A DNA stretch of 37,759 nt. It comes from an uncultured Methanobrevibacter sp. (GTDB lineage Archaea; Methanobacteriota; Methanobacteria; Methanobacteriales; Methanobacteriaceae). Below are positions 2,211 to 34,705 of the stretch, piece after piece. The notes under the pieces are model-generated. The model was given only the letters and a program-made list of their open reading frames with translations, had not been told where the DNA came from and made no database searches. The stretch's first letter is position 1; the number at the start of each line of letters is the position of its first letter. The position numbers were made by a program, and so were the translations under genes. Location: the NCBI GenBank assembly GCA_902796575.1, contig CADBPS010000073.1, positions 1-37,759 on the forward strand. Direction: 5' to 3'.

Positions 2211-2232
2211 AATAATCATTCCTTAATTTATT

Positions 2233-15736: not shown

Positions 15737-16814
15737 TATTGCCACCCTTTTTTAAAGCAAAGTCAACGATTCTTCTAGATGATTCGCCGTCAATTTCACC
15801 GAACTGAAGCTGAACAAATGACTCTAATTTAGATTTATCAGCACCCTTACTGATGCAGTCGATTAACTGCCTGGAATTATAGACAACCGGTCCTGGCAGG
15901 TCATGTTTGTAATCAAGGTAAAACCCTCTTTCGTTATTCAGATAATTATCCAGATCATAAGCAAAAAATATAATTGGCCTGTTTAAAAGGGCAAATTCTA
16001 TCATAATTGATGAGTAGTCTGTAATTAGAATATCACTAATCAGTAAAAGTTCCTGTTCGTTTTCGTAACTGCTGCAGTCCACATAATACTCACCGCTTTG
16101 AATATCATTTTTATAAAACTTTTTAACTTTAGGATGGAGTCTTAAAAGCAGAACATATTCATCAGACAATTTGGTGTTGAATTCCTTTAAATCCAGATAA
16201 TTAAAAACATTATTATACTCCGTGTCCTGTCTGAATGTGGGAGCATAAAGAACTATTTTTTTATCACAGTCAATGTTAAATTTTTTACAGAACTTTTCCC
16301 TCAGGGAAGATAAATCATGATTTTTAAAATAATAATCCGAACGGGGAAGACCTAAAACCTTAATTTTTGACTCATCTATTTGAAAGGCCTCCCTATAAAA
16401 TTCCTTAACAAACTCTGAAGTTATAATAAGATAATCAGTATTCTCAGATATTTTTTTAAGCATTTCTGCATTTTCAACACTGGCTCCAAATTTCTTGAAA
16501 GCCCCCGGAGCATGCCATAACTGAATAACCAGGGAGTCATTTTTGAATTTCATGAAAGCCAGAGGAAAAAAATTGTCATTTAGAAAAATATATTTGGAAG
16601 TAGCTAACCTGGTAAAAGAATTAAAGGAAAATTTGTCTTTGTAAAAATAATTAAACTCAAAAGCATTTCTTTTCTCAAACTCCTCACGGACATAGTTTAA
16701 ATTGCTTGAAAAGGAATTATTGGAATCGACAATAAATGAAACCCTGTGATTATTAACCGGGAGTTTAGTTAAGATATTAAAAAATAATGAAAAGATTTTG
16801 TGTTTTAAAAACAT
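15729..16814 (-). CDS. CDP-glycerol glycerophosphotransferase family protein (TagB/TagF-like)
   Basis: 361 aa. VIQLWHAPGAFKKFG (about residues 95-109) is the W-H-[AG]-x-G motif of the family, and LITDYSSIMIEFALLNRPIIFF (about 260-281) is its nucleotide-binding D-Y-S-S motif. VLYAPTFRQ lies between them. Bacterial relatives add glycerol phosphate or ribitol phosphate to teichoic acids; other members handle similar polyol phosphates. A basic N-terminus would sit on the membrane. It is first in a four-gene operon with three family-2 glycosyltransferases. TATA-like CTATTTATAC at 16840-16831 and AGAGGT at 16826-16821 precede the start. Product chemistry in this archaeon is an inference. Confidence 0.88.
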   Translation of the reverse strand: MFLKHKIFSLFFNILTKLPVNNHRVSFIVDSNNSFSSNLNYVREEFEKRNAFEFNYFYKDKFSFNSFTRLATSKYIFLNDNFFPLAFMKFKNDSLVIQLWHAPGAFKKFGASVENAEMLKKISENTDYLIITSEFVKEFYREAFQIDESKIKVLGLPRSDYYFKNHDLSSLREKFCKKFNIDCDKKIVLYAPTFRQDTEYNNVFNYLDLKEFNTKLSDEYVLLLRLHPKVKKFYKNDIQSGEYYVDCSSYENEQELLLISDILITDYSSIMIEFALLNRPIIFFAYDLDNYLNNERGFYLDYKHDLPGPVVYNSRQLIDCISKGADKSKLESFVQLQFGEIDGESSRRIVDFALKKGGNND

Positions 16815-18118: not shown

Positions 18119-19179
18119 AATAATCTCCTGAATTTATTTTTTAATTTGGAAACTAAACTGTTATCATTCATATTTATCTGGGATTTCTCCAGTCTGTTTG
18201 ACTCTGACACTGCCTCATCAAATTTTTTACTCAATATCAAATCAACCAGTTTATCATATCTTTTTTTAAAATATGGATCTGGAGAATAATATTTGTTAAA
18301 GACATCATATGATTTGACAAACAATTCCTTTTTGTCCTTATCTTGCAGTTTTGACAATACAATTGTATACAGCCATGAGGTTAAGTGATTTTTAAATATT
18401 ACTTTCCCGTATGACGTTTTATCCAGTCTTTCAAGCAGCAGGTCAATTTCATAGTATCCGTTTAAAATAGCTTCAATATACTTTCTGTTTCTTATGTGTA
18501 TTGTAGATTTATCCTTGCTGTTGTCCCTTATCTTATAGTTATATGAATAAAAACTGTTTAGATATATTATTCCATCTGCACACAATGATGCATTAACTGC
18601 AACATATACATCTTCTGCAAGCATTCCTTCAAGAAATCTGATATTGTTTTCCATTAAAAATTTTTTTCTGAATAATCTTGTCCATATTGCAGCGGGAACC
18701 CTGAAGAGGTTTTCATCCTTTGAAATATCTGAAACTTCAATTTCATCCGCGTCTCCATAGATTGATTTGAAGGGAATTACTTTATCGGGATACACCTGAT
18801 TGAAATTTGAAATCAGCATATCGTTACCGTTAATTTTATTCAGCATGATTTCAAAGGCATTTTCAGTGTATGAATCATCATGATCACAGAATATAACATA
18901 ATCAGAGCTTGCCAAGTCAAGACCTATATTTCTGCCGGTACCCGGAAATCCGGAATTTTCACTTTGAAAAACTGATTTGACATTATCATAGGACTCATCC
19001 AGATGTTTTAACAATTCCAGTGTTGCACTATCAGATGAGTTATCATCTACAAAAATAATTTCTATATTTTCAAATCCCAGACCCTGAGCTTTCATTGAAT
19101 CTAAAAACTCATTCAAATAGTTTCCAGAATTATATGTGGCAATGACAACTGTAATATTATAGCTATTCATATTTATCAT
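18115..19179 (-). CDS. Family-2 glycosyltransferase (HDD type), paralogue of its neighbour
   Basis: 354 aa. ITVVIATYNSGNYLNEFLDS, VDDNSSDSAT, GFPGTGRNIGLDLASSD and VIFCDHDDSYTENAFE match the downstream gene position for position. FLEGMLAEDVYVAVNAS and KSTIHIRNRKYIEAIL are also shared, so the two arose by tandem duplication and may add successive similar residues. Two ATGs, 19179 and 19170, are possible and neither has a clear ribosome site; the first overlaps the previous gene by 17 bases. The C-terminus is basic and helical. Confidence 0.86.
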   Translation of the reverse strand: MINMNSYNITVVIATYNSGNYLNEFLDSMKAQGLGFENIEIIFVDDNSSDSATLELLKHLDESYDNVKSVFQSENSGFPGTGRNIGLDLASSDYVIFCDHDDSYTENAFEIMLNKINGNDMLISNFNQVYPDKVIPFKSIYGDADEIEVSDISKDENLFRVPAAIWTRLFRKKFLMENNIRFLEGMLAEDVYVAVNASLCADGIIYLNSFYSYNYKIRDNSKDKSTIHIRNRKYIEAILNGYYEIDLLLERLDKTSYGKVIFKNHLTSWLYTIVLSKLQDKDKKELFVKSYDVFNKYYSPDPYFKKRYDKLVDLILSKKFDEAVSESNRLEKSQINMNDNSLVSKLKNKFRRLL

Positions 19180-20755
19180 TTAAAATTTTATCATATATTA
19201 AAATATATTCATCTGACATTTGTTTTGTATTCTTAAATTGAATCGATTTAAGACTGTTTATTTTATCATTATAATCATTTTGAGTAATATTTGTTATAAA
19301 ATCATATATCTGAGCCGGGTTTTTATAGTCAACCAGCCAGCCTCCGCCAGTTTCAGTAATTCTTTCCTTTAAAGCACCTATATCACTGGAAATTACAGGA
19401 AGTCCGGCCATCCATGATTCAGTTAAAGTATAGGAGTATGTTTCAGGACATGTTGATAATATTAACGAACAGGAAGGATTTATTTTATCCACTAATTTAT
19501 TAAAATCACTTCTCTCATACCTGCCGTGATTTATCCCATAACTGTTAAGGTTGGGTATTGTTGTGCCGAGAAAATTGAACTCCAATTTATTTTTTTTATC
19601 CAGTCTTTTAATTTCTTTTATTAGAAGTGAACCCTTATGTGGAGAAATATGGCCCGGAACCAGAATTTTAACAGGATTTGAAGTGAATTTTGGATTGAAG
19701 GATGTTTTATTCACACTGACACCATGTTCAATTACTTTAAGATTATCCAAATCGGGATAGAATTTTTTATATAAATCCATCGCTGAGCGTGTCGGAGCTA
19801 TATTGGCATGGGATTTCTTCAAAACATCCCCGCATATTTGTCTCCATAATTCAATGATTTCAGCACTTCTGGACACATCATCAACAGCTATACCTCCGCA
19901 TTCACCGCATTCAAATTCACAAAACTGATACTTGCAATTAATTAAATGAATAGATGGGCAGATATAATAGAAGTCATGTAGATTAATTAAAAAAGGAATT
20001 GATTTTTTATCAATAACATCAATTAAATTAAAACTATGATTAATTAAATGGTTAATATGAACAATATCTATATTAATTTTTGAAAGAATTTCATCATAAA
20101 CAGTCAGTAATTTCTCGCTGAATAATTGCTTTTTGAAATTGCTGCAGTTGATGATATTTCCCGAATTGTCAATAACCGAAAAATTTGTGTTATAAGAGAT
20201 ATTGTAATTAGCTATTTTTTCAAGGGAATCGGAAAAATGCCAAAGTTCAATGTCTTCTCCGTCTGAAGTTAGAATAAATGGATTGTAGGAATCATCAAGA
20301 TTACTGATAATATCCAAATTTAAAAATCCGGTACCTCCAACCGTTCCTATTTTTTCATGCAGAACAAAGAGTATGTTTTTTTTATCAGAGGCAAATTGTG
20401 ACAAATCCCTGTCCAAAGGCCTGATTAGCCTGTCTTCGCTGATACCATATAATGCATAATGAACCAGCGGATTGATTTTAACATCAGAATAATGATTCCT
20501 GTAAAAAACTCCATCAAAAGTGTCGTTAGGTTTTTTGCCTTCATCAAAACCGAAGAAAATGTAGTGAAGAAGAGGATCCATCCCAGATGATTTAACTTTA
20601 GGATATTTTTCCAGATAAAAATCATCATCAAAGAGATTATTGCTGCGAATAGCTTTATAACCCTTAATAATTTCTTCAGCTTTGGATTTATCCTTGATTT
20701 TACGGGATATGTATTGACTGGGAAAATGAGCGAATAACCTGTTTTTAAAATTCAT
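19163..20755 (-). CDS. HYL-module family-4-like glycosyltransferase
   Basis: 530 aa. After a basic N-terminal helix come two copies of a 35-residue repeat (about 38-110) with FYLEKYPKVKSSGMDPLLHY and FYRNHYSDVKINPLVHY, called here the HYL module. A GT-B type transferase follows (about 128-520): GTVGGTGFLNLDI, a cysteine-rich patch with CPSIHLINC and CEFECGECGG (about 265-290), ILVPGHISPHKG, then CPETYSYTLTESWMAGLPVISSDIG, the E-x7-E-like donor-site motif of family 4. It overlaps its neighbours on both sides (11 and 17 bases), so it is a middle gene of the operon. Acceptor and donor unknown; acts on the cytoplasmic side. Confidence 0.85.
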   Translation of the reverse strand: MNFKNRLFAHFPSQYISRKIKDKSKAEEIIKGYKAIRSNNLFDDDFYLEKYPKVKSSGMDPLLHYIFFGFDEGKKPNDTFDGVFYRNHYSDVKINPLVHYALYGISEDRLIRPLDRDLSQFASDKKNILFVLHEKIGTVGGTGFLNLDIISNLDDSYNPFILTSDGEDIELWHFSDSLEKIANYNISYNTNFSVIDNSGNIINCSNFKKQLFSEKLLTVYDEILSKINIDIVHINHLINHSFNLIDVIDKKSIPFLINLHDFYYICPSIHLINCKYQFCEFECGECGGIAVDDVSRSAEIIELWRQICGDVLKKSHANIAPTRSAMDLYKKFYPDLDNLKVIEHGVSVNKTSFNPKFTSNPVKILVPGHISPHKGSLLIKEIKRLDKKNKLEFNFLGTTIPNLNSYGINHGRYERSDFNKLVDKINPSCSLILSTCPETYSYTLTESWMAGLPVISSDIGALKERITETGGGWLVDYKNPAQIYDFITNITQNDYNDKINSLKSIQFKNTKQMSDEYILIYDKILNDKYE

Positions 20756-22322
20756 AAGAATCAGTTATAATTTCCTCAAGGCCTTTAAGAAAATCCTGTG
20801 TGAAATCATTTTCAATAATAATATCCGCAGAAACATCCTTATTGAACGATAAAGACAAGTCATAATCGGAGGTATCTGAATTGTCGTCATTAACAATTAT
20901 TTTAACAAGATCATCACGGGAAATAATTCTGTTCAAATCATATTTATCAGTAAATGAAATTAAAACATCACAGGAGTTTCCAATGTAATTGTTATTCAAA
21001 TCGCTGATGATTTCGACAGTATAATTCATATCATTGAATTTTTTTGAAATATCATGAATTAATTCATTGTTCACATCGGAGATTATGGTAATTTTAAGAT
21101 TTTTTTCTGTGAAAAACTTTTTTGAATGTATTTTATCCAGAAGCAAATGCTTTGATAAAAACTGACCCCATCTCTTCCAGAATACGGAGTAATTATGCTT
21201 GTCATTTTTGAAATAATTTTTGGATTTTACACGGGTACTGGATTCATGGTGGAATAATAATGCATTGCCTGCAAATAGAACCTTATGTTTGTTCTTATAT
21301 AATTTTAAGCAGAAATCAACGTCTTCCAGACCATATATGTAATCTTCATCCAAACCGCCCAAATCCATATATATTTCCCTGTCAACAAGCATTACTGCAC
21401 CTGTGACGGCTACACAATGATTATTTTTAGTCAGCGAATTATCAAAAACATCCAATTTGGAATTTGATTTATTAATAGCATATAAACAACATGGATTCAT
21501 TCTTTCAGCAAATATATCTCCGCTGTGCTGGATTTTAAAAGATACCTCCCTGTTTGCATTATAATAGAAAGGAAAGACCAGTTTAGCACCTACGGCAGCT
21601 GCATCATCATTATATAAAATGGTACCTACCAGTTCATTTAACCATCCGTAAGTAGGTTCTATATCGTTATTCAGTAAAAGCAAATATTTTCCGTTAGCTA
21701 TTTTGGCGGCATCATTATTGCCTTTTGAAAAACTTACATTAACATCATTTTCAATAATTTTAATCGGCAAATCAAGACTTTTCAGGTAACTGACAGAATC
21801 ATCCTTTGAATCGTTGTCAACAACAATAATTTCATAGTTTGAATAGTTGGTTTTATTATCGAAATCAGTGAATAATCTCTTCAAATGATCAATACCATCT
21901 CTGTTTAAGATAATAATAGAAACAAGCGGTTCATCATCGAATTTGTAATTTGACAGGAATGCCTGATTCGTTTCCTGAATTTCTTCTCTTCTTCTAATGG
22001 AAAATGCCTGCTGGGTAAATTTGCCTTCATTTTTACCATGGACAATATAGTGATAAAGAGGATTTATGTTTTGACGCCTGACATCAGGATATGCAGTGAA
22101 ATAAAAATCCGAATCAAAATCAAGTGAAGGCAGCTTGCCTTCCAGATATCCTCTGCCCAGATAATGAGTTAAGGGATCTCCCGAAACATCATCATATGTT
22201 TCAGTATAAAATTTCTCATCAAATAAGCCTGAACCTGCAATAGCTGAATAATATTTATGATATCTGAGGGATTTTTTATAATCAAAACGGGATGAAATCA
22301 GCAGACGAATGAAACTAACCAT
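20745..22322 (-). CDS. HYL-module family-2 glycosyltransferase with C-terminal Rossmann-like domain
   Basis: 525 aa. Residues about 33-105 hold two HYL repeats (DPLTHYLGRGYLEGKLP and NPLYHYIVHGKNEGKF). The GT2 domain (about 128-390) has SIIILNRDGIDHLKRLF, VDNDSKDDS, FSKGNNDAAKIANGKYLLLLNNDIEPTYGW and YIYGLEDVDFCLKLYKN. The last about 120 residues begin LKITIISDVN and look like a degenerate nucleotide-binding half domain. The start ATG follows the stop of the DUF616 gene directly (TAAATG) behind GGTGAT, so translation is coupled. It is a paralogue of the 33116-34651 gene, which has the same three-part layout. Confidence 0.86.
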   Translation of the reverse strand: MVSFIRLLISSRFDYKKSLRYHKYYSAIAGSGLFDEKFYTETYDDVSGDPLTHYLGRGYLEGKLPSLDFDSDFYFTAYPDVRRQNINPLYHYIVHGKNEGKFTQQAFSIRRREEIQETNQAFLSNYKFDDEPLVSIIILNRDGIDHLKRLFTDFDNKTNYSNYEIIVVDNDSKDDSVSYLKSLDLPIKIIENDVNVSFSKGNNDAAKIANGKYLLLLNNDIEPTYGWLNELVGTILYNDDAAAVGAKLVFPFYYNANREVSFKIQHSGDIFAERMNPCCLYAINKSNSKLDVFDNSLTKNNHCVAVTGAVMLVDREIYMDLGGLDEDYIYGLEDVDFCLKLYKNKHKVLFAGNALLFHHESSTRVKSKNYFKNDKHNYSVFWKRWGQFLSKHLLLDKIHSKKFFTEKNLKITIISDVNNELIHDISKKFNDMNYTVEIISDLNNNYIGNSCDVLISFTDKYDLNRIISRDDLVKIIVNDDNSDTSDYDLSLSFNKDVSADIIIENDFTQDFLKGLEEIITDSYEF

Positions 22323-23363
22323 TTAATCACCATTATTTCTTAATTTTCTAAGTACACTAGTTAATTTCCATGAAAATGAATCTCTAACATCATTTATCTG
22401 TCTATCCCAATAGTCCCTATTCTGATTTAAAGCTTCAGCTTCATCCCTTAGGGCATCAATATCATTGAACAGCAAAAGAATCTCCTCTGTAGTCAATATG
22501 TTTTTTTCCTGAATATTGCCTTCAAGGGATTTAATCAGATTCCTGCTTGTAATATAATCATCCACTTCAAAATTATGATGGTAATCACCCTGTCTGGCCC
22601 AGTATTTATTATCCCAGTAATAACAGGGACTGACTGAAGGATGAAAATCATTCTTCCAGGCCACATATGCAAAACTAATCTGATCCTGATTGGTGTGTCT
22701 GATAATTTCTTCCCACCAGTCGTTCATTAAATTAATTACTGACGGATTATTATGCTGTCTAAAAATAGCTCCCAATGCAGGAAGCCCATAATTTCTAGGC
22801 ATTCCTTCTTTTCTGTAAGTATCAACCTGATTCAGTATAGAATAATTTGAATATCTTGGAAATTGAATAGAACTGTTGGCTTCATCAAAAATACAATCTC
22901 TTTCGGGATGAACAGCATTCAACATTGGAGAATTAGCATATTTTAATATATATTCCCTGATACTGCCTACAAGTTTAAATGAACCGTCAATCCAGAAACT
23001 ATATTCACAATCCGGAAAATATTTGTTTGGAAAAACCTTATACTGCTTTGCAATTCTATTGTCATCCAGTGTAGAATTTTCCATTTGAATAATTTCCCAG
23101 GTATCCGATTTTAAATCAGGATTTTGAGTAAAACAAACATAACGTGTATTATCATCAATAACATCAGGTTCTTTTAAGGAATCATAATCGCCAGTGAATG
23201 CCGTATAAACAACCAGTTCACTGTCTGCAATATCCTTTTTCAGCTCTTCATCTACTTCAAGTGAAGACTGAAACAGGTCGCTTAAAATAAAACCGTCAAC
23301 ATTAGACTCATGTCTAGCTCTAATAACTTCATAAGGATTAATATCATCTGTCATACAAATCAT
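22323..23363 (-). CDS. DUF616-type glycosyltransferase
   Basis: 346 aa. VVYTAFTGDYDSLKEP, the R-Y-V-C-F-T strand, the K-Q-Y-K turn and YSFWIDGSFKLVGSIREYI (about residues 120-138) are hallmarks of the DUF616 (TOD1/MUCI70-like) family, with Asp-Gly in place of a DxD. The tail DSFSWKLTSVLRKLR resembles the tails of bacterial surface-glycan transferases. It is the first gene of the leftward operon. ATG 23363 is chosen because GGGCGG lies four bases before it; TTG 23375 and ATG 23354 are possible. The DUF616 half of the 855-aa fusion protein is its close paralogue. Acceptor unknown. Confidence 0.82.
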   Translation of the reverse strand: MICMTDDINPYEVIRARHESNVDGFILSDLFQSSLEVDEELKKDIADSELVVYTAFTGDYDSLKEPDVIDDNTRYVCFTQNPDLKSDTWEIIQMENSTLDDNRIAKQYKVFPNKYFPDCEYSFWIDGSFKLVGSIREYILKYANSPMLNAVHPERDCIFDEANSSIQFPRYSNYSILNQVDTYRKEGMPRNYGLPALGAIFRQHNNPSVINLMNDWWEEIIRHTNQDQISFAYVAWKNDFHPSVSPCYYWDNKYWARQGDYHHNFEVDDYITSRNLIKSLEGNIQEKNILTTEEILLLFNDIDALRDEAEALNQNRDYWDRQINDVRDSFSWKLTSVLRKLRNNGD

Positions 23364-23475
23364 TGAACCGCCCAACTTTAGAGAATCGGGAACTTTAAAA
23401 TTTTATGGATAATGCCTTTTTGCCTAATCTATCTATAAGTTAAATAAGTTACAGCATTGGCGAACTTTCATAACT

Positions 23476-23757
23476 TTAATGGAAAAATGCAATCATTCCA
23501 GGTAATGATTCCAGCATGGCCTGAATACCTAAAATAAATATTGCCAGCCCACCAATAAAATTAATATGCCGGGCATATTTAATAGCAGCCCTAGTACCAA
23601 GTGTTCCTATTAAAATCCAACAAACAACAGCCGTTAAACTTAAAATACCCAGTATCACAGGATTAACGGAAGCAGCTACACCCTGAGCAGCTAAAATAAG
23701 ATTCTCAATATTACCGAAAACAATTAAAGTAAAGAACTGTTTGAATTCACCGGACAT
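23476..23757 (-). CDS. Small three-helix membrane protein, half-transporter-like (copy 2)
   Basis: 93 aa with three hydrophobic segments. TM1 contains IVFGNIENLILAAQGV with a glutamate in the membrane, TM2 ILGILSLTAVVCWILIGTLG, and TM3 FIGGLAIFILGIQAML. Arg/Lys cluster in the TM2-TM3 loop (TRAAIKYARH), so N-terminus inside and C-terminus outside is likely. It starts at the base after the stop of its paralogue (TAAATG) behind AGGGGGAC. Layout and the acidic TM1 site recall one repeat of 3+3 inverted-repeat cation carriers such as MntP or TerC relatives, but the family name is not established. Confidence 0.7.
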   Translation of the reverse strand: MSGEFKQFFTLIVFGNIENLILAAQGVAASVNPVILGILSLTAVVCWILIGTLGTRAAIKYARHINFIGGLAIFILGIQAMLESLPGMIAFFH

Positions 23758-24042
23758 TTATGTCCCCCTTATTGAATTAAGCATGGCCTGAGCACCTAAA
23801 ATAAAAATAACAAGACCACCAAAGAAATCAATGAAATGAACATACTGTAAAGCTACCTGAGTTCCAATTGTTCCAATCGTTAACCAAAAAGTTACTGCAA
23901 TAATACTGGCAATACCCAGTTTCAATGGATTTACACCAGCCACAACTCCCTGTGACGAAAGCACCAAATTTTCAATATTGCCAAAGATTATTAATCCAGC
24001 AAAAGGCAAATATTGCTCCAACACATCAATCACCATTTTCAT
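23758..24042 (-). CDS. Small three-helix membrane protein, half-transporter-like (copy 1)
   Basis: 94 aa, clearly paralogous to the next gene: LIIFGNIENLVLSSQGVVAGVNP, TFWLTIGTIGTQ-like TM2 and FFGGLVIFILGAQAML are all shared in place. Here the basic residues are in the TM1-TM2 loop (NPLKLG) and at the C-terminus (SIRGT), while the TM2-TM3 loop has almost none. This is opposite to its partner and would place the N-terminus outside. TATA-like TTATATATTT (around 24107-24112) lies upstream, giving a leader of about 40 bases. The equal dose and coupled translation fit a heterodimer. Confidence 0.7.
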   Translation of the reverse strand: MKMVIDVLEQYLPFAGLIIFGNIENLVLSSQGVVAGVNPLKLGIASIIAVTFWLTIGTIGTQVALQYVHFIDFFGGLVIFILGAQAMLNSIRGT

Positions 24043-24288
24043 TAAAAAATCGGAAAATCATTTCCGACATAATCCGTTTCCAATAATTAGTATTGAGAAT
24101 TAAAAATATATAAAATTATCCTTAATCCCATGCATCAGAAGAATAGTTGTTAAAAATATTTCAAAAAATAAAATCAATAATAAAAAACATGCATTAGTCG
24201 GAATTGGAAAATGAAAAAAATTCAGCAATATTATAAAAATAGCTTTTAATTAAAAAGAAAGTAAAGTTTAAAGACAAGCTTTAAATCT
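24043..24288. other. Intergenic region with promoter and terminator
   Basis: The left-reading promoter of the small membrane-protein pair lies near 24107-24112. The right end is a strong hairpin that terminates the 24289 gene. No gene seen between. Confidence 0.4.
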
Positions 24289-24293
24289 TTACT
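24260..24293 (-). terminator. Hairpin terminator that includes a stop codon
   Basis: AGTAAAGTTTAAAG (24260-24273) pairs with CTTTAAATCTTTACT (24279-24293) with a one-base bulge and a five-base loop. T-rich sequence follows on the minus strand. The upstream arm contains the TAA stop (24291-24289) of the 731-aa protein gene. Confidence 0.55.
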
Positions 24294-26484
24294 TGTAATA
24301 CACTTTGTATATCCTAACCCCATTATCCTCAAATACCTGTGAAAACGTTACGTTATCATTGGACAGTGGCGTTAAATCTTCTTTTGAAAGAATATAACTT
24401 ATATTAAGTTTTTCCATATCCTGTGTATTTAAGCTTACAACAACATGATCTGATTTTTCCAGAGTTGAAGATGCAGGTATTTCAATTACAGTCGGGAAGG
24501 AATCCTGAAATACTATTTTCAAGTGCGAATAACGGTTGTAAATATCATATGATTCATTGTTTGGATCCAGTTTCGAGAACAAATCAAAATTAGGATAAAT
24601 ATTCACACTGTTAAGCGTATGCGCCCCCGAACCAATTATTTCGTTGATAAACATTTCATGACCTTCAACAACCCATATTGCATCCGGATCGCTTTCAACA
24701 ATACTGGAAACCTCCTGAATAATCGGCTGATCGTAGTAATAATCAACACCGGACTCGATAGGATTTGCAAAAGCGCCGGCAGCAACCGAAATCACCACCA
24801 CACAACATAAAAGACCAAACTGTGCTTTTTTATTTTCAGCACTGTTAAGAATGAAGAAGAATGTTATTCCAAAAAGAACAAATGAAACAATCAGCATTGA
24901 AACAGAATAATATTTTGTTCCCATAAAGTAAAAATCACTGAACAAAACAATACCAACCAGCAAAAGACTTATAGCTAAACTTTTTACAGAAAAAGATTTG
25001 CCTAAAAAATCAATCGGTTTCAGTACAGCTAGTGAGCGGATTACTAAAAACACATCCACGAGAGTGATAATAACAAGCAGTCTTGTACTCATTGACATAC
25101 TCAACAGAGTAATTTTTCCGACAATTTCCGGGAATGTAATGAAATAATACACCAAAAAGAAAATATAAACTGCCATCAGTAAATGAAGCAGAACATCCCT
25201 TTGTTTTTGAACAAACTGCACAATGGAATAAAGTATAATGCCCAGAGGGAAAAATGAAACGAAATAAGCCAGACTTATTTTTACAGGAAGCTGCTGGGGA
25301 GTCAATGCATAAAATAGAGTTCTCATATAATCCAGCAGATATGTAGGATTTGCAGCACCGTAATATAAATCAACACCGCCAAAATACTTCCTGCCTCCAG
25401 GATAATAGGTGTTCAATGTAGTAAACAGTGCATCATAGGATTTAGTGAATATGTAAATAAGACTAACAATTAAAATTACTGAAAATACAATAAAATGTAT
25501 TAAATCCTTCTTCGAAAATGTAAATTCCCTCCAGTTCTTGTAAACCACCCATATCATCAAAGCAAGAATAATATATGCAATCGGAACCTGCCATGCGGGA
25601 TAAACAGAAACTGTATATGCAACACCGCAAAAGGCAATGAGAACTGAAATGAGTAATCGCTTCTTAAAATCATTGCTGAGCATGAATTTATCCAAGAGCA
25701 ATACAGCTATTTGTCCAAAAATAAGCATTTCAACCAGAAAATTCACACCAAACCACCATTGAACCAGTGGGGATAAAGTAATTAATAATGAATAAACAAG
25801 AGATAATGTTTTATTTTCTTTTGTAATTAACATTCCCAGCTCAAAAGATACTAATAACAATACAATTAAACGACCAAGCCAATAAAAAGAAAGACCCATT
25901 CCCTTAGGCAAAAATAAATAACCCCAGAAAAATGGACGGAACAGACTGGCTATGTCCAGAACAGGCTGTCCATATAACAGAAACATATCAGTAGGCACTG
26001 ACCTTACAATATCACTGAAATAGGCGAAATTATTAAAATACTGGGAAAATGCAAATGGTGTAGCTACACTAAATTCATCGCCGTGAACCGTAAAAGGAAC
26101 ACCAAACAAAGCACTATGCTGATTTGCAGATATATTGAGCAAACTTAATGATGATCCGTGAATCTGAAGCAAAACACCAATCACAAAAACAGAAAGTGCA
26201 ATTATAAAACGATTTTTATACAGAAAACTGGAAGATTTATCCCTTAACTCTTTTTTAACAAGTATCGTGAAAAATATTAAAAACAACACAATTAATGCAA
26301 GCATATGCTTAAAGGAAAACAGTTGAAATACAATGTTAACTGCAGATAAATCATCAATATTGAAAAAAGCAGAAGAATTCTCTAAAAGAACGATGTAACA
26401 TTCGCTTACAAATGAGAAGAATATCGATAAAATCAAAATCAATGAAATCTCTTTTCTATTAAGCTCAATATTATGAACATTCAT
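24289..26484 (-). CDS. Large polytopic membrane protein, GT-C/YfhO-like
   Basis: 731 aa with about thirteen to fourteen membrane helices and a soluble C-terminal domain of about 150 residues. A large first extracytoplasmic loop holds VPFTVHGDEFSVATPF and a proline- and aromatic-rich stretch (RPFFWGYLFLPKGMGLSFYW). This is the layout of YfhO-like and related GT-C membrane proteins that glycosylate surface polymers, with GDE a possible catalytic acidic site. I cannot assign a family firmly. ATG 26484 is preferred because GGGTGA lies four bases upstream. It stands alone with its own promoter and terminator. Confidence 0.65.
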   Translation of the reverse strand: MNVHNIELNRKEISLILILSIFFSFVSECYIVLLENSSAFFNIDDLSAVNIVFQLFSFKHMLALIVLFLIFFTILVKKELRDKSSSFLYKNRFIIALSVFVIGVLLQIHGSSLSLLNISANQHSALFGVPFTVHGDEFSVATPFAFSQYFNNFAYFSDIVRSVPTDMFLLYGQPVLDIASLFRPFFWGYLFLPKGMGLSFYWLGRLIVLLLVSFELGMLITKENKTLSLVYSLLITLSPLVQWWFGVNFLVEMLIFGQIAVLLLDKFMLSNDFKKRLLISVLIAFCGVAYTVSVYPAWQVPIAYIILALMIWVVYKNWREFTFSKKDLIHFIVFSVILIVSLIYIFTKSYDALFTTLNTYYPGGRKYFGGVDLYYGAANPTYLLDYMRTLFYALTPQQLPVKISLAYFVSFFPLGIILYSIVQFVQKQRDVLLHLLMAVYIFFLVYYFITFPEIVGKITLLSMSMSTRLLVIITLVDVFLVIRSLAVLKPIDFLGKSFSVKSLAISLLLVGIVLFSDFYFMGTKYYSVSMLIVSFVLFGITFFFILNSAENKKAQFGLLCCVVVISVAAGAFANPIESGVDYYYDQPIIQEVSSIVESDPDAIWVVEGHEMFINEIIGSGAHTLNSVNIYPNFDLFSKLDPNNESYDIYNRYSHLKIVFQDSFPTVIEIPASSTLEKSDHVVVSLNTQDMEKLNISYILSKEDLTPLSNDNVTFSQVFEDNGVRIYKVYYK

Positions 26485-26530
26485 TTTTTCACCCAAACTT
26501 AACCTAGTATATGTTAAAGATTGGGATTAT

Positions 26531-26563
26531 GAAATATTAAACTTTTCTTTAGGAAAGTGTAAG
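26531..26563 (-). promoter_or_regulatory. Promoter of the 731-aa protein with shared motif
   Basis: The minus strand reads ACTTTCCTAAAGAAAAGTTT then AATATTTC, nearly the same as the promoter element at 12865-12897. The AT-rich part would serve as TATA box, about 50 bases ahead of the ATG. Confidence 0.4.
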
Positions 26564-26692
26564 GCTCCTGATAATAATTTATGGCCTAAAATAGTTTTAC
26601 ATGAAATGATATAAACAACTAAAAATAAGATTTAAAAGCGGATTAAACGCCAAAAAAGAAAAAAAGATATTAATTGCTATAATATAATGCAA

Positions 26693-27453
26693 TTAATAAT
26701 CTACTGTCCCTATATCATTGTTTGAATTTTCAGGTAAAACAGTTTGAACATCCGCCACATCATCATGTTGCTGGATTTCAGACTCAACAGAATTATTTGC
26801 AATGTAATCAGAAAGTGAAGGAATTTCAACATTAAGTTTTGGTGTATCTATTTGATTAGGCGGAGTACTATCAGAGTTATTATTCAAAGTTACAATAGCA
26901 TCATCATAACGATAAGTTACACTTATATCATCTGCCTCAAAAATCAGAACCATTATTGGAATATATTGTTAAAGATACTGCTCTTAAAGATCTGGCTTAA
27001 ACACACAAAGTTTTTTGCCCAAAATGTCTGCAAAATGAGATATCTCATTATCATAAAATTTAGATTGGAGATTACCATCGACAAAAATTATGAAAAAACT
27101 GTTAACATTAACTGGACGAACCCCACCAATATTAAACTGATTAAAAAAATCCTTCATCAGGAAAAACATTAGGATTCTTATCAATTGAAGGTTCCCTAGA
27201 CAAATCAACAACAGTCTTATTTAAATCAGAAATCCTTTTTTCAATGTTATTAAATTCTGAAAGCAAATTGTCAATAGTATCAACACCAACATTATTGGTA
27301 CAAATTATTCTCATTGGCACTGCTTGTACCCACAGAAATATGATGATTGGATGATGCTAATGCATTTTCTACAGAATCATTCTCAAATGTCACAGCATAG
27401 CTGGTACAAATCAAAGCACCAACCACCAAAATTAATAGTATTTTTTTCAACAT
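26693..27453 (-). pseudogene. Frameshifted gene for a secreted protein
   Basis: The reading starts at ATG 27453 behind AAGTGAT with a clear signal peptide (LKKILLILVVGALICTSYA) and runs about 53 codons. It then continues only by changing frame three times: NVGVDTIDNLLSEFNNIEKR to about 27140, FIIFVDGNLQSKFYDNEISH to 26984, and finally an 86-codon segment, ADDISVTYRYDDAIVTL to DIGTVDY, ending at 26693. Each segment looks coding, and together they would give an acidic extracytoplasmic protein of about 245 residues. Three shifts in one gene argue for decay over programmed shifting. No homologue recognised. Confidence 0.55.
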
Positions 27454-27638
27454 ATGATCACTTACATATACATTTTGAGCAAATTGTTATAAATATATTC
27501 TATAACATTCCATGATTGTTCAATCCTTAAAGCTTATATGTTATTTTTATTTAATAATACGCTTTCACGGATAGAAATAAAATAATTCATTAATTTGTTA
27601 TTCAGACTAAATTCACAAATAATATGTTTATACACTCA

Positions 27639-29162
27639 TTAATTTGAAAGAATATCATCCCATATTTCAATCCTATTTTCAATGGAATAATTTCTTAAAA
27701 CTTTATCCAAAGCATTAATGCGAATTGATCTTCTTAAGTCTTCATTTGAAATAAGTTTTTCTATATTCCCAATCCACTCATCATCAGTTTTAGCTAAAAA
27801 TCCGTCAACACCGTCTTCAACAACTCCATTATAAACACACATATCAGAATACACACCCGGTATTCCAAGAATAGCTAGTTCAATGAATTTCAATTCACTT
27901 TTACACTGATTAAATGGTGTATCTTTTAAAGGAACAAGACAAACATCCCAATTGACATTACTGGATAACCATTTCATGAATTTTTCAAAGTTCATATTGT
28001 CTGCGGGAAGTTCAATAGCTTTAAACCATTCTTCATTAACATTATCTGATTCGTTGAATCCCCCAATAACTTCAAAATCAAAGTCATATTTTTCTTTTAA
28101 TTTTAATATAATATTTTTTATTAAGAATAAATCTTTAGAATGGGTTAAAGTTCCATAATATCCTAATTTTAACTTGCCTTCACTTTTAATGTCTTCATTT
28201 ATATCAAAAACAGAGTCTACATAGTAATTGGAAATAATAATTGTTTTATTTTTATCAAATTTTGAGGCTAAAGCCTGTGTTGATACAGTTATAATATCTG
28301 CTGAATCAATAAATTTGGAGATTGAATCACGAACACGATTCACATATTCATAAGAGGGACTGTTTTTTTCAACTCCAAGCAGGTCATCATCGGTTTCATA
28401 GATGATTTTAATACCGTGTTCCATGCATTTAACTCTTAAAATATCCAAAAAAGGTAAAATCCTTTGAACAATTACCACATCAAATAATTTTGTTCTTAAA
28501 ATGTTATTGATATCCATCATTTGAAAGGAATCCATACCGTACATGAAAAAGGTATATTTTTGACTTTCAGACAGTCTGGAGAATAATGCATGCAGACGGA
28601 TATACGGGCATGGTGCAAGATTTTCAAAAGGATCATTAGTAAAAACACCAACACGAATTCTATCAGTTTCAATTGGAGATTCACGCTGAATATAAGGAAT
28701 TAGTGTCTTTTTATCAGTTATATAATACGAATCCCGGACGATATCTTCAACCTTGGATTTTTCACTTGAAAAATATTGGGAAAAGAGTGGTGTTTCAAGT
28801 GTATTGATATAGCTATTATCAAGGTTGTTAATCACATGCCCCTTGAAAAAACCCTTCAAAACATAATCTAAAATCGGATTATCACAATTGTATTCGCTTT
28901 TATAAAAGTTTAAATTAAAAACATCAGTGGTGTAACTTTGCTGAACATCAAGGGAATCATTAATTCCATAATACAGGTAATGAAGAACATAATCCAAATT
29001 ATTGACATCATGAACTTCACAATATTTTGCTTCATCAATGATATGTGAGTCTTTAATGCATTTGTAAGCTTTTTTATAATCAGAAATCTTGGATAAATTT
29101 CCCCTGGATTTTAAAGTGATATAAGCATTCGGGTTTTTCTTTACTAAATTGGAAAAATTCAT
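27639..29162 (-). CDS. HYL-module glycosyltransferase, family-4-like
   Basis: 507 aa. Degenerate HYL repeats lie at about 45-120 (LDYVLHYLYYG and NPILDYVLKGFFKGH). The GT-B part (about 170-505) has RVGVFTNDPFENLAPCPYIR, VIVQRILPF, IIYETDDDLLG, LKLGYYGTLTHSKD, CKSELKFIELAILGIPGV and DGVDGFLAKTDDEW. The two Cys-Lys-Ser-Glu-Leu and Glu-Thr-Asp-Asp-Asp motifs recur in the 855-aa fusion protein, whose C-terminal half is a paralogue. Monocistronic: a divergent gene lies upstream and the pseudogene region downstream. TATA-like TTTATATA lies near 29227-29235. Confidence 0.84.
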   Translation of the reverse strand: MNFSNLVKKNPNAYITLKSRGNLSKISDYKKAYKCIKDSHIIDEAKYCEVHDVNNLDYVLHYLYYGINDSLDVQQSYTTDVFNLNFYKSEYNCDNPILDYVLKGFFKGHVINNLDNSYINTLETPLFSQYFSSEKSKVEDIVRDSYYITDKKTLIPYIQRESPIETDRIRVGVFTNDPFENLAPCPYIRLHALFSRLSESQKYTFFMYGMDSFQMMDINNILRTKLFDVVIVQRILPFLDILRVKCMEHGIKIIYETDDDLLGVEKNSPSYEYVNRVRDSISKFIDSADIITVSTQALASKFDKNKTIIISNYYVDSVFDINEDIKSEGKLKLGYYGTLTHSKDLFLIKNIILKLKEKYDFDFEVIGGFNESDNVNEEWFKAIELPADNMNFEKFMKWLSSNVNWDVCLVPLKDTPFNQCKSELKFIELAILGIPGVYSDMCVYNGVVEDGVDGFLAKTDDEWIGNIEKLISNEDLRRSIRINALDKVLRNYSIENRIEIWDDILSN

Positions 29163-29441
29163 TATTACAACTCAAAGCTAGTTAAATAGACATTGGAAAA
29201 CCTATAATGATAATATGTTAAAAGAATATATAAAAATTTCTCAGAATTAAAAAGTAACAGATAAACTTTTAAATCATGACAATATCCTCTAACTTTAGTT
29301 TTAATCATCTATACAACTGGAATGCAATATCAAATAGAAAAAATTAAATGAATAAAGTAAGTTTAAAAAAAATCCTGAAGCATAATGCAGTAAAAATGAT
29401 ACATAGTAACTATAAATATTCAGCACGATAAAGGTAAAACC
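29163..29441. other. Divergent promoter region
   Basis: A leftward TATA-like element (about 29227-29235) serves the 27639 gene. A rightward CTATAAATA at 29410-29418 lies 24-32 bases before the ATG at 29442, so that message is leaderless or has only a few extra bases. No gene seen. Confidence 0.45.
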
Positions 29442-30542
29442 ATGTCATATAAAGTAACTGTTATTATTCCTTCATACAATAGTGTTGATTTTTTGGATTC
29501 AACAATTTCATCTATTAAATCCCAAACAATCGGTTTTGAAAATATAGAATTAATAATTGTAGATGATTATTCAACAGACTCCACACAAGAACTTATTGAC
29601 CGATATTGCGATGAATATGAAAATATTAAAACCTATGAATCTGGTAAAAAGACAGGAACCCCCGGAAGAGCCAGAAATATAGGAATAAAAAATAGTACAT
29701 CCGATTATATAATGTTTATCGACCACGACGACAAGTATCTTCCAGACACAGTTGAAAAATTATATAATGCCATTACCTCCAACAGCAGTGATGTTGCTAT
29801 CGGTAAATTCCAAACATTCGGTGAAAACTATATTGTCAGTGAAGACTGGATTACAGATGATACCGTTTTAAATTCAATTGATGAGAATTTACTGTTTTTT
29901 TCCATCAATAACATTTGGAGAATGATTTTTCCAAAGGAATTTTTAATTAAAAACAATATCACTTTTCCGGAAGGTGTTTTCGCTGAGGATTTAACATTTA
30001 TGGTTGATGCCTTTGTTAATTCAGACAAAATTGTTTTTATAAATGATATTGTGTATAATTTCCGTTTAAGAACAGGCGATAATTCATCAACTAGTTTATC
30101 AAAAGGTATGCACTATTTAAACGGTTTGATTGATGGTTATTTAGACACAAATGATGTACTGGAGAAAAATGATTGTTTAAAATATTATGACACTATATTC
30201 AATCAGCATTTATCTGTCTGGCTAAGCGATGTTGCCTTAAGTGAAACGATTGAATTTGAAGATAAAAAAAAGTTAATCGACAAATCAATTCCGCTATTTA
30301 AAAAATTAAACAATATTGAACCGTTTCCGCAAAACAATGCCATTAAAAGCATTATAACACAGATTGTTAATGATAATTTAGATGAAGCATATATGCAAAT
30401 GGGAGATTATCAGTTATTCAGAAACAGAATACAGAATCTTGAAGTGGAACTCAATGCAAAAAAACAGCAAATAGCTACATTGCAGACTACAAAAGGCTGG
30501 TTTAAATATAAAATTAAAAACATATGGGAAAGATTAAGGTGA
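29442..30542 (+). CDS. Family-2 glycosyltransferase with C-terminal coiled coil
   Basis: 366 aa. VTVIIPSYNSVDFLDSTISS, VDDYSTDSTQE, GTPGRARNIGIKNSTSDYIM and IDHDDKYLPDTVE (about residues 90-102) show the GT-A fold with the same His-Asp-Asp variant as the 17084 and 18115 genes. FPEGVFAEDLTFMVDAF is the acidic motif. The C-terminus is a coiled coil (RIQNLEVELNAKKQQIATLQ, about 330-349) and a basic tail, probably for membrane or partner contact. It is the only rightward gene among its neighbours. Its stop codon lies one base from the stop of the convergent fusion gene, within a shared hairpin. Confidence 0.86.
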   Translation: MSYKVTVIIPSYNSVDFLDSTISSIKSQTIGFENIELIIVDDYSTDSTQELIDRYCDEYENIKTYESGKKTGTPGRARNIGIKNSTSDYIMFIDHDDKYLPDTVEKLYNAITSNSSDVAIGKFQTFGENYIVSEDWITDDTVLNSIDENLLFFSINNIWRMIFPKEFLIKNNITFPEGVFAEDLTFMVDAFVNSDKIVFINDIVYNFRLRTGDNSSTSLSKGMHYLNGLIDGYLDTNDVLEKNDCLKYYDTIFNQHLSVWLSDVALSETIEFEDKKKLIDKSIPLFKKLNNIEPFPQNNAIKSIITQIVNDNLDEAYMQMGDYQLFRNRIQNLEVELNAKKQQIATLQTTKGWFKYKIKNIWERLR

Positions 30543-30550
30543 TTTAATCT
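30531..30550. terminator. Hairpin spanning both stop codons of convergent genes
   Basis: AGATTAA (30531-30537) and TTAATCT (30544-30550) pair perfectly around GGTGAT. TGA of the rightward gene (30540-30542) and TAA of the leftward gene (30546-30544) both fall inside it, so the shared spacer is a single base. Confidence 0.5.
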
Positions 30551-33111
30551 TCAATTAATCTTTTAAATATATTGTCCCATTGATTTACACGTGATTTGAG
30601 ATTATAATTTTCTAAAATATCTTCCCTTGCATTGTTGACAATACCGTTACGCAGGCTTCCGTCTTCAATCAGTAACGACAGCTTGCTTACCCATTCATCC
30701 TCATCATTAGCTAGAAATCCAGTTACACCATCCTCTATTGATTCATTGTATACATTAACATCACTTGCAACGACAGGTATTCCCAAAGCTGAAAATTCAA
30801 TATATTTGAGTTCGCTTTTACATTTGTTGAACTCATTGTTGACTAACGGAATGATTCCAATATCCCAGTCTGAATTTTTACCCAGCCAGTCATAAAACGT
30901 TTTCATCGGCATCGGATAATATGGTATTTTTTTAACATTGTACCAGTCTGAGGTTTCGTTAATGGATGCACCGGCAATTTCAAAGATGATTTTAACACCT
31001 TTTTTTGAAAAAATATCTTTTAATCTTAAAATCACATTATGAATTAATTCCAAATCATTATCATGAGTTAATGTCCCAAAATAACCAATTTTGATTATTT
31101 CATCACCCCTGTAGGCAAATGGCTTCAATTGCAAGGAATTATTTGCATAATAGTTTTTTATGATTTCAACATTATTAATATCCAGCTTATTGAAGCGTTT
31201 TTTTAACTCTTCAGTACTGACAACCACCTGATCTGAATTATTAACCAGCTTTTTAATACTGTTGAAATTACCCTGAATATAGTTATATGAAGGATTTGCA
31301 GGATTCAAATCAAGAAAATCATCGTCGGTTTCATAAACTATTTTAATATGCTGTTTTTTTGAATTTTTAAGAATCTGATTTGAATACGGATTCACTCTCT
31401 GAATGACAACAACATCAAATATTTTGGAGTTTATCATATTTTGCTTGTCCAGAAGAGGCATTATCTCCTGACCGTAAATGAAAAATGTATAATCTCCAGT
31501 CTTTGCCAGCTGTGTGAACGGTGTGTGAATTCTGATAAAAGGACATGCATTCATGTTGTCATAGTTATCCTCTAAAAACACACCAACTTTTATTTTACCG
31601 TTGTCAAATTCTTTATTTGTCACAATATAGTCTATTAAAACTTTTGAATCTGTTATGTAAGTATTGTTTTCAAGTTCATTTTCAATCCTCTCGGTTGCAA
31701 ATTTATCCAGTTGGGAATGTAAGTTTTCGGATAAATTAGTAACGAAATTCTGATATTTTCTGTTGAAATTCAGTTTTTCATCAAAGCCCTGTCTGATATA
31801 ATGCAAAACAGGATCCTGACCTTCAGTATCATTAGCACTGATGTAGTAATATAAATCAAAAATCGGATCTATGTAGTTCAGTTTTGTATCTATTGAATCC
31901 TTGTAACCTTCCACCATATAATGGCTTAGCGCATCAGGGCACGGATGTATTTTGGTATACTCGGCATCATTTAAAATACCTAAATTCCTCATAACTGTGT
32001 ATTCATCTTCTTTTTCCAAAAAATCCTCTTTTTCATTTTTTAAAATATGTAAATGAGGATTGTTTTTTATTTTACGTGCATATGCACCGGCATTTCTTAA
32101 TGGTTTAGTTAATTTTAATGAATTTGAATTAATAAATGTGTTATATTCGTTTTGAAGAAAACCTACTCTTCCGGCCGTGTCTATTCTGTAACCTGCCATT
32201 CCCTTGACATCATTTACAAGCAGATACAATTCCTCCCTTGATAACTCGATAGTATCTCCCAGTTCCATGTTGCTGACGTCAACACCTATTTTGGCTCTTA
32301 AATTATCGCTTGTAATTGGAGTGGTCAGGATAATCTTGTGATGATAATTTCCTTCTTCCTTTGCCCAGTATTTATTATCCCAGTAATAACAGGAACTGAC
32401 AGACGGATGAAAATCATTTTTCCAAGCAACATATGCAAAACTAAGCTGATCCTGGTTGGTATATTTTATATTCTCATCCCACCAATCTTCCATTAACTTA
32501 ATAACATTAGAATCATTATGTTTTCTGAAAATAGCGCCCATAACACCCAATCCATAATGTTTGGGAAATCCCTGGGATTTGTAGTAATTAACCTGTTCTT
32601 CCATAACTGCACGGGGATAGCGGGGAATAATTTTTGAAGCCTTATACTCCTCATAAACACAGTCACGTTCCGTATGGACAACAACAAGCATCGGCGAATC
32701 AGCTTTAATATTATTGTAAATATATTCCCTAATACTTCCCTTGATTTTAAATGTACCATCCAGCCAGAAACTGTATTTATAATCTTTTAAATACTTATGT
32801 GGAAGTAGTTTATACTGTTTTGCTTTTCTGTTATTATCTAAAATAGATTCCTCCATCTGAACAATTTTCCATAAATCAGATTCTAAATTCGGATTATCTG
32901 TAAAGCAGATATAATCACAATTTTCATCAATGAATTCAGGATGTTTTAAAGTATCATAATCTCCCGTGAAAGCAGTGTATATTGCAAGTTTATTATTTTT
33001 AATGTCTTCAACTGTTTTTTCTGCAGAATCTGTTGAATGATTAAATAAATCCCTGTTGACGTGCTCTTTTGAAACCTTAAGGAATGTTTCATATATCTCA
33101 TCATAACCCAT
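30544..33111 (-). CDS. Fused DUF616 glycosyltransferase, HYL module and GT4-like transferase
   Basis: 855 aa. Residues about 40-255 are a DUF616 domain (LAIYTAFTGDYDTLKHP, YSFWLDGTFKIKGSIREYI). A tail motif NSLKLTKPLR (about 329-338) follows, then two HYL repeats (about 378-446; CPDALSHYMVEGY and DPVLHYIRQGFDE) and a GT-B domain (about 505-850) with IKVGVFLEDNYDNMNACPF, IVYETDDDFLD, IKIGYFGTLTHD, NKCKSELKYIEFSALGIPVV and DGVTGFLANDEDEW. Two sugar-transfer activities in one chain are likely, acting in sequence or on the same acceptor. It begins four bases after the preceding gene and ends against the convergent gene. Confidence 0.88.
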   Translation of the reverse strand: MGYDEIYETFLKVSKEHVNRDLFNHSTDSAEKTVEDIKNNKLAIYTAFTGDYDTLKHPEFIDENCDYICFTDNPNLESDLWKIVQMEESILDNNRKAKQYKLLPHKYLKDYKYSFWLDGTFKIKGSIREYIYNNIKADSPMLVVVHTERDCVYEEYKASKIIPRYPRAVMEEQVNYYKSQGFPKHYGLGVMGAIFRKHNDSNVIKLMEDWWDENIKYTNQDQLSFAYVAWKNDFHPSVSSCYYWDNKYWAKEEGNYHHKIILTTPITSDNLRAKIGVDVSNMELGDTIELSREELYLLVNDVKGMAGYRIDTAGRVGFLQNEYNTFINSNSLKLTKPLRNAGAYARKIKNNPHLHILKNEKEDFLEKEDEYTVMRNLGILNDAEYTKIHPCPDALSHYMVEGYKDSIDTKLNYIDPIFDLYYYISANDTEGQDPVLHYIRQGFDEKLNFNRKYQNFVTNLSENLHSQLDKFATERIENELENNTYITDSKVLIDYIVTNKEFDNGKIKVGVFLEDNYDNMNACPFIRIHTPFTQLAKTGDYTFFIYGQEIMPLLDKQNMINSKIFDVVVIQRVNPYSNQILKNSKKQHIKIVYETDDDFLDLNPANPSYNYIQGNFNSIKKLVNNSDQVVVSTEELKKRFNKLDINNVEIIKNYYANNSLQLKPFAYRGDEIIKIGYFGTLTHDNDLELIHNVILRLKDIFSKKGVKIIFEIAGASINETSDWYNVKKIPYYPMPMKTFYDWLGKNSDWDIGIIPLVNNEFNKCKSELKYIEFSALGIPVVASDVNVYNESIEDGVTGFLANDEDEWVSKLSLLIEDGSLRNGIVNNAREDILENYNLKSRVNQWDNIFKRLIED

Positions 33112-33115
33112 GTTA

Positions 33116-34651
33116 TCACAAATATTTATCTTTTATTGAATCTAATAATTTATCCGCATAATTATCCTGCTTTTCTAAACATATATCATATCTTTCATCA
33201 GCATTAGGTGAAATTAATACTTTAATAATATTTAATCTTGAAATAATTTTATTAACATCATAATTTTCATCAGCTGATAATAAAATATCACAGTCTTCGC
33301 CGATATCAAGATTTTTCGGATTTGGAATTAATTTAACATTGTATCCCTTATTATTTAAATCTTTAGCCAAATTGGATATGAAATCTGTATTTTTGGATAT
33401 GATAGAAATATCCAATTTTTTATTGGAAATCAAGTTGTTATGGTAAATTTTACCTTTCAGTATTTCCTTGAAGATAAAATCTCCCCACTTATTATAGAAA
33501 TACATTATATTTTCATAGTTAATTCTGTTTTTTTCATCCTGGTCTTCTAATCGGGTTGCTGATTCATGGTGAAATAACAATGCAAACGGACAGAAAATTG
33601 ATTTATAACCTTTTTCATAGAGTTTAAATGCAAAATCAATATCTTCATAACCGTAAAAATAGTTTTCATCCAGTCCTTCAAGCTCAAAATAAAGTTCACG
33701 GGAAACAAGTAAACAGGCAGCTGTATTTGAAATAACCTCCCGATGATGATTTCTCTCACCTGAAAAGAGCAGCGTGGAAAACATATATTCATGATATGGA
33801 CCGTAAATATAAGGAGTTCTTTCTTCCCTGAATTTAACTCCTGCATGCTGAATTGTAAATGATTTTCCCTGACTTGCCATATCATCATAATATGGAAATA
33901 TTAATTTAGCACCGACAGAACCTACATTTTCATTATTCAGCATACATCCAACCATTTCATTCAGCCATCCATAGGTAGGTTCCATATCATTATTCAATAA
34001 CAGCAGATAATCTCCTTCAGCTATTTTAGCAGCATCATTATTGCCTTTTGAAAAACTGTGATTAACATCATTTTCAATAATTTTTATGTTCAAATCCAGT
34101 GATTTTAAATAGCTGACAGACTCGTCAGTGGATGCATTATCAACTACAATAATTTCATAATTTGAATAATTGGTCAGGCTGTCAAAATCTGCGAACAGCC
34201 TTTGCAGGTGGTTCAACCCATTCCGGTTCAGGATAATAATTGAAACTAATGGTTCATCGTTAAAATCGTAATTTGACAGAAATGCCCTGTTTGTATCGAG
34301 AATTTTTGTTTTTCTCAATGTAAAAGGGTCACTGTCCATTTTAAAACCCTCAACATCATTGTCAATATAATGTATTAATGGATTAAGATTATTTTTTTCA
34401 ACTTCAGGATATTCCTCCAGATATCTCCTTAAATTAAATGTTGGAGAGGGAAGTTTATGTTCCTTGGCACCGTAAAAGAGGTAATGAAGCAAAGGATCCA
34501 TTCCTGATTTCTTAACATGAGGATATGCTTTTAAATAATATTTTTTATCAAATAATCCTGATTTCATTATCTTATCATAACTTTCCTGATAAAGTTTGGC
34601 TTTTTTAGTATTGAACTTTGATTTAATCAGAAAATCCTTAAAAGTCACCAT
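33116..34651 (-). CDS. HYL-module family-2 glycosyltransferase with C-terminal Rossmann-like domain
   Basis: 511 aa. HYL repeats at about 30-105 (MDPLLHYLFYGAKEHKLP and NPLIHYIDNDVEG). The GT2 domain has SIIILNRNGLNHLQRLF, VDNASTDES, HSFSKGNNDAAKIAEGDYLLLLNNDMEPTYGW and YGYEDIDFAFKLYEKGY. The last about 120 residues start LDISIISKNTDF and resemble a half Rossmann fold, as in its paralogue at 20745-22322. ATG 34651 is chosen over 34690 because GAGTGGT sits ahead of it and because its paralogue starts the same way (Met-Val-x-Phe). Operon member between the 34706 gene and the fusion gene. Confidence 0.86.
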   Translation of the reverse strand: MVTFKDFLIKSKFNTKKAKLYQESYDKIMKSGLFDKKYYLKAYPHVKKSGMDPLLHYLFYGAKEHKLPSPTFNLRRYLEEYPEVEKNNLNPLIHYIDNDVEGFKMDSDPFTLRKTKILDTNRAFLSNYDFNDEPLVSIIILNRNGLNHLQRLFADFDSLTNYSNYEIIVVDNASTDESVSYLKSLDLNIKIIENDVNHSFSKGNNDAAKIAEGDYLLLLNNDMEPTYGWLNEMVGCMLNNENVGSVGAKLIFPYYDDMASQGKSFTIQHAGVKFREERTPYIYGPYHEYMFSTLLFSGERNHHREVISNTAACLLVSRELYFELEGLDENYFYGYEDIDFAFKLYEKGYKSIFCPFALLFHHESATRLEDQDEKNRINYENIMYFYNKWGDFIFKEILKGKIYHNNLISNKKLDISIISKNTDFISNLAKDLNNKGYNVKLIPNPKNLDIGEDCDILLSADENYDVNKIISRLNIIKVLISPNADERYDICLEKQDNYADKLLDSIKDKYL

Positions 34652-34705
34652 AATACCACTCGCAAAAAAATAAATTATTAATATCTCCAAAAAAAATATT
34701 CACAA

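Follow-up and report, generated by a model that had tools for sequence, protein, structure and literature searches.

The capsule polymerases Cps3D and Cps7D contain a TPR solenoid preceded by a bundle of positively charged helices; when this solenoid is truncated, elongation becomes more distributive and the linker glycan is no longer elongated (PMC11666461). Membrane-associated amphipathic helices have been described in KpsC (PMC10148158) and WbdD (PMC11231755). Here we analyzed a tandem repeat, next to basic segments, in five proteins encoded within a 37,759-nucleotide stretch of DNA from an uncultured Methanobrevibacter sp. (hereafter, the window).

Repeat-bearing proteins of the window

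The window contains RadA-like and RPA-like genes (1275-4821, named from sequence) and then a large surface-glycan cluster. A teichoic-acid type CDP-glycerol glycerophosphotransferase (PF04464, E=2.7e-76) is encoded at 15729-16814 (minus strand) within this archaeal cluster. The five ORFs that an earlier note on this DNA had described as carrying a repeated module (19163-20755, 20745-22322, 27639-29162, 30544-33111 and 33116-34651) were all present and all lie on the minus strand, a detail absent from that note; the last of them may start at ATG 34651 or, alternatively, at an upstream TTG at 34690. The features are given below, where bit scores are those of leave-one-protein-out HMMs, i.e. of repeat profiles built without the tested protein, and E values are those of a mostly bacterial profile.

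20420..20635, minus strand, canonical repeat pair (aa 41-112) of the GT4 enzyme 19163-20755; 47.9 bits, E=1.3e-30
20636..20755, minus strand, basic N-terminal segment (aa 1-40) of 19163-20755; net +4 in the first 30 residues
22020..22226, minus strand, canonical repeat pair (aa 33-101) of the GT2 enzyme 20745-22322; 51.5 bits, E=6.1e-31
22227..22322, minus strand, basic N-terminal segment (aa 1-32) of 20745-22322; net +5 in the first 30 residues
28848..29042, minus strand, degenerate repeat pair (aa 41-105) of the GT4 enzyme 27639-29162; 25.3 bits, orthologues
29043..29162, minus strand, basic N-terminal segment (aa 1-40) of 27639-29162; net +5 in the first 30 residues
31762..31977, minus strand, degenerate repeat pair (aa 379-450) between TOD1_MUCI70 and GT4 in the fusion 30544-33111; 33.0 bits, E=0.024, orthologues
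31978..32112 (approximate limits), minus strand, basic linker with an LTKPLR-type motif before the internal pair of 30544-33111; sequence, with modules of bacteria likewise preceded by basic segments
34343..34555, minus strand, canonical repeat pair of the GT2 enzyme 33116-34651; 62.3 bits, E=1.7e-34, block mean pLDDT 92-97
34556..34651, minus strand, two basic N-terminal helices (H4-10, H15-31) packed before the pair of 33116-34651; block mean pLDDT 88-97, net +5 in the first 30 residues

The repeats are real in all five proteins, which scored between 25 and 62 bits when held out, whereas the maxima of 200 shuffles per protein never exceeded 9.5 bits. Both copies are clear in the three canonical proteins, and those of 27639-29162 and 30544-33111 are degenerate. 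When a mostly bacterial module profile was run over the 1.97 Mb assembly to which the window contig belongs, it recovered the pairs of the three canonical proteins (E=1e-30 to 2e-34) and one degenerate copy in 30544-33111, it did not find the repeats of 27639-29162 at E<=1, and it revealed no further carriers in the genome. In three related genomes, orthologues of the two degenerate proteins had weak copies, one or two in number, at the corresponding position (one copy in those of 27639-29162), and the order of these genes is kept in the three relatives, with best matches of about 50-78% identity. TOD1_MUCI70 occurs twice in the window, fused with the repeat pair and GT4 in 30544-33111 and alone at 22323-23375 (both minus strand), and the stand-alone gene yielded no copy of the repeat.

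Repeat unit, predicted fold and distribution

The repeat length of about 35 residues proposed in the earlier note had to be corrected to 38, the commonest spacing between copies (201 cases), and the number of copies per ORF ranges from 1 to 14. Y and H never vary across the aligned set, in which strong conservation is also seen for F, G, P, L, E, G and R. AlphaFold2 predicted a four-repeat bacterial array as an all-helical solenoid (pLDDT 96, pTM 0.86) with three short helices per repeat. In the model of the whole 33116-34651 protein, the N-terminal 100 residues form eight helices (block mean pLDDT 88-97), two of which precede the repeats and correspond to the helical stretch that the earlier note placed before each pair, and the repeat unit is joined to the GT2 part through a weak, low-confidence linker, the overall pTM being only 0.45. 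Structure prediction therefore points to a compact helical unit of its own, and the module is best described as a 38-residue, three-helix tandem repeat forming a predicted helical solenoid.

Pfam places GT2 at residues 136-256 and 150-263, i.e. beyond the module, and GT4 also follows it, with TOD1_MUCI70 on its N-terminal side in the fusion 30544-33111. This confirms that the module stands ahead of GT2, ahead of GT4 and, in the fusion, between TOD1_MUCI70 and GT4, as had been proposed. These boundaries, together with the separate helical unit in the models, place the module outside the catalytic folds, and the view of it as mobile and independent of enzyme type is supported. No Pfam or NCBIfam model covering the repeat was found in the window proteins or in plasmid homologues, so that the module does not coincide with a domain described in those libraries. 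In agreement with this, the 25 commonest of the 36 Pfam families in 108 sampled carriers included no candidate for the repeat, although a rare weak match could escape such a survey, and neither sequence searches of the PDB (nothing significant) nor literature searches for the repeat motif returned the repeat. Foldseek comparison of the four-repeat model with the PDB gave no fold match (best E 5.7); it did match giant-virus proteins, including GT2, FkbM methyltransferase and DUF5672 proteins (best E=5e-5, the rest weaker), and the full-length model retrieved, among the matches listed, glycosyltransferases and related synthases only. A TPR or Sel1 identity (34-36-residue two-helix units) was discarded on the basis of the 38-residue three-helix unit, the absence of a match to TPR/Sel1 Pfam models at E<=1 in the window proteins and the absence of a PDB fold match. 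Searches of Pfam, NCBIfam and the PDB thus found neither the repeat family nor its predicted fold, and a description in InterPro or the AlphaFold DB is possible.

The module is widespread in Bacteria and occurs also in one archaeal family and in viruses. A tblastn search with one module returned 114 plasmid records, mainly of alphaproteobacteria but also from E. coli and Enterobacter loci and Bacteroides, and in the annotated E. coli plasmid example the module is accompanied by rfb genes and an ABC exporter. A degenerate DNA pattern run over genome contigs gave at least 120 stretches, labelled in their records as Alpha-, Beta-, Gamma- and Deltaproteobacteria, Cyanobacteria, Melainabacteria, Acidobacteria, Verrucomicrobia, Lentisphaeria and Actinomycetes, and 115 of the 120 listed hold the module at E<1e-8. 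Within the archaeal phylum 69 of 152 genomes carry it, all in the family of the window (14 of 20 genera), and none of the 24 genomes of other families in an earlier scan had it. This distribution, together with published work on related methanogens (PMC3445992), suggests that the archaeal copies are probably of bacterial origin. A viral scan with a single archaeal module and a tblastn search of phages yielded no relatives, and the bacterial-type pattern gave 50 viral contigs with repeats in all 50. An unverified faecal 'bacteriophage' record, MT836085.1 (L227), matches the repeat in five places, and its viral nature is in doubt.

Partner proteins and proposed role of the module

The earlier note anticipated that the partners would be almost only glycosyltransferases. 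In a random draw of 30 carriers of 350-1450 aa, 21 showed a glycan-type enzyme domain, of which 20 had a glycosyltransferase or pyruvyl-transferase domain and one a methyltransferase only; four were of the secreted RTX, peptidase or lipase-like type (for two of these the assignment came from sequence character or a weak match and not from a Pfam call), and five had no partner assigned. The preference for glycan-building enzymes was thus borne out, whereas the exclusivity was not. In relatives of the window's organism the module is found on LicD, TupA-like ATP-grasp and methyltransferase proteins, sulfotransferases are also among the carriers, and repeat arrays were seen at the C terminus of RTX, M10, subtilase, trypsin, GH16 and GH26 proteins. 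The secreted carriers, which include peptidases and a 5'-nucleotidase C-terminal domain, are therefore not solely glycan-acting. Moreover, a repeat pair lies inside the stretch matched by PHROG 598, a DNA-ejection family, in two phage proteins (L197:6178-7293 and L225:2106-3392). The module is thus biased toward glycan enzymes and extends beyond them. ORFs in L059, L072, L104, L156 and similar loci probably encode secreted alphaproteobacterial proteins with long repeat arrays at the end, those of L059 and L072 ending in a short glycine- and threonine-rich tail. Those of L147 and L068 consist almost entirely of repeats, each with 11 copies or more, and the sequence covered shows no evident partner domain.

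The segment ahead of the module was then compared between classes that we assigned ourselves by sequence and Pfam. On glycan (cytoplasmic) enzymes the 45 residues before the module had a net charge of +2.9 versus -0.6 in controls (n=90, p=2e-8), and on secreted carriers the same segment was acidic (-3.2, n=20). Four of the module enzymes in the window have a basic N terminus and the fusion has a basic linker ahead of its internal pair, and the module-less GT2s of the window have a basic C terminus instead, a strongly hydrophobic segment being present in two of these. A W-[RK]-x-T-x-P-L-R type motif was rare before the module (4 of 99), and only the general basic charge holds. This charge fits a membrane association of the segment, with the repeats doing something further, and such a putative membrane role is drawn from composition, the hydrophobic-moment excess before the module being small (0.339 versus 0.313, p=0.016).

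The docking, membrane or acceptor-binding role suggested in the earlier note is plausible. We propose, with a probability of about 0.5, that the basic segment and the repeats tether the enzyme at the membrane assembly site and hold a glycan polymer or a partner, the module being an accessory solenoid on surface-glycan enzymes. In the window enzymes, the basic N-terminal helices would place the enzyme at the cytoplasmic face of the membrane, and the repeats would keep hold of the lipid-linked glycan as it grows, or of a partner enzyme attached to that glycan, so that successive enzymes would act on one and the same chain; in secreted and phage ejection proteins the repeats may likewise attach the protein to envelope glycan. 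This tethering is suggested by the fact that glycan enzymes, with folds unrelated to one another, predominate among the partners, by the clustering of module enzymes (two or more module ORFs within at most 8 kb at 18 of 118 sampled loci, and five in the window), by the basic charge preceding the module in the window and in sampled carriers, and by a fold predicted with high confidence. A wider and more speculative extension is that a repeat superfamily with its own fold, spread over Bacteria, one archaeal family, phages and giant viruses, might be a general envelope-glycan adaptor that keeps polymerising enzymes on the chain, fixes secreted proteins to the coat and helps the ejection apparatus onto the envelope.

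The same clustering would also be expected if the repeats bound a common scaffold or one another and thereby assembled the enzymes of a cluster, making no direct contact with glycan. Such protein docking is a serious if doubtful rival: helical tandem repeats commonly bind proteins, and do so more often than they bind other ligands, which counts against glycan binding, as do the conserved F, Y, H, G and P, all of which could be structural, and the peptidases and 5'-nucleotidase domain among the secreted carriers. WbdA, in addition, is recruited to WbdD through its C-terminal region (PMC11231755). No conserved scaffold candidate was identified, however, and a cytoplasmic scaffold could not be the partner of the terminal repeats of secreted proteins or of phage ejection proteins. 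Glycan is the ligand most obviously common to all three settings, and for this reason binding to envelope glycan or polymer is rated somewhat above pure protein docking. An improbable alternative is a ligand-free spacer or folding aid separating a membrane-bound N terminus from the catalytic domain; the variable copy number, as in length spacers, and the position of the module between basic segment and catalytic domain in the window enzymes agree with it, but neither the strong sequence conservation across phyla nor the C-terminal position on secreted proteins would be expected of a pure spacer. Finally, that the repeats, which directly adjoin GT domains, belong to the ordinary glycosyltransferase fold has a negligible chance of being correct, being refuted by GT2 domains that begin past the module, by its separate modelled unit and by the many carriers lacking any GT domain.

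The module fills a stretch left blank by domain libraries in many large polysaccharide enzymes whose annotation is poor. A named profile would flag glycan-assembly proteins in bacteria, methanogens and viruses, and would supply a defined, testable part for the question of how a growing chain is held, and its length set, by cytoplasmic enzymes. Since the solenoid is confidently predicted and has no PDB counterpart, it is a cheap structural target.

Comparison with known systems

Two described families touch the module. DUF4214 (PF13946), a small domain of undescribed function, co-occurs with it in two or more sampled proteins, including a GT2/GT4 protein, and is a separate Pfam family, located in the glycosyltransferase protein of L100 at residues 27-75 versus 202-273 for the module. 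The C-terminal part of PHROG 16346, a phage family without known function, matches one repeat copy (positions 60-94 of 95, E=8.6e-11), the match spanning that single copy only.

As in KpsC and WbdD, the glycan enzymes that carry the module are flanked by a basic or amphipathic segment thought to hold them at the membrane (PMC10148158, PMC11231755), but in KpsC and WbdD this segment is C-terminal, whereas here it directly precedes the repeats and is usually N-terminal. Among studied systems the closest analogue is the TPR domain of the TagF-like Cps3D and Cps7D of Actinobacillus pleuropneumoniae, which share with the window enzymes a helical solenoid N-terminal to the glycan enzyme and positively charged helices ahead of it (PMC11666461), and this analogy favors tethering to the nascent glycan or the assembly site. 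The likeness to that processivity solenoid is drawn from architecture alone, and the module differs from the TPR helix pair in having three short helices per 38 residues and no TPR model match. The architecture has a known functional analogue, whereas for the repeat family and the fold predicted for it no counterpart was found in the libraries searched.
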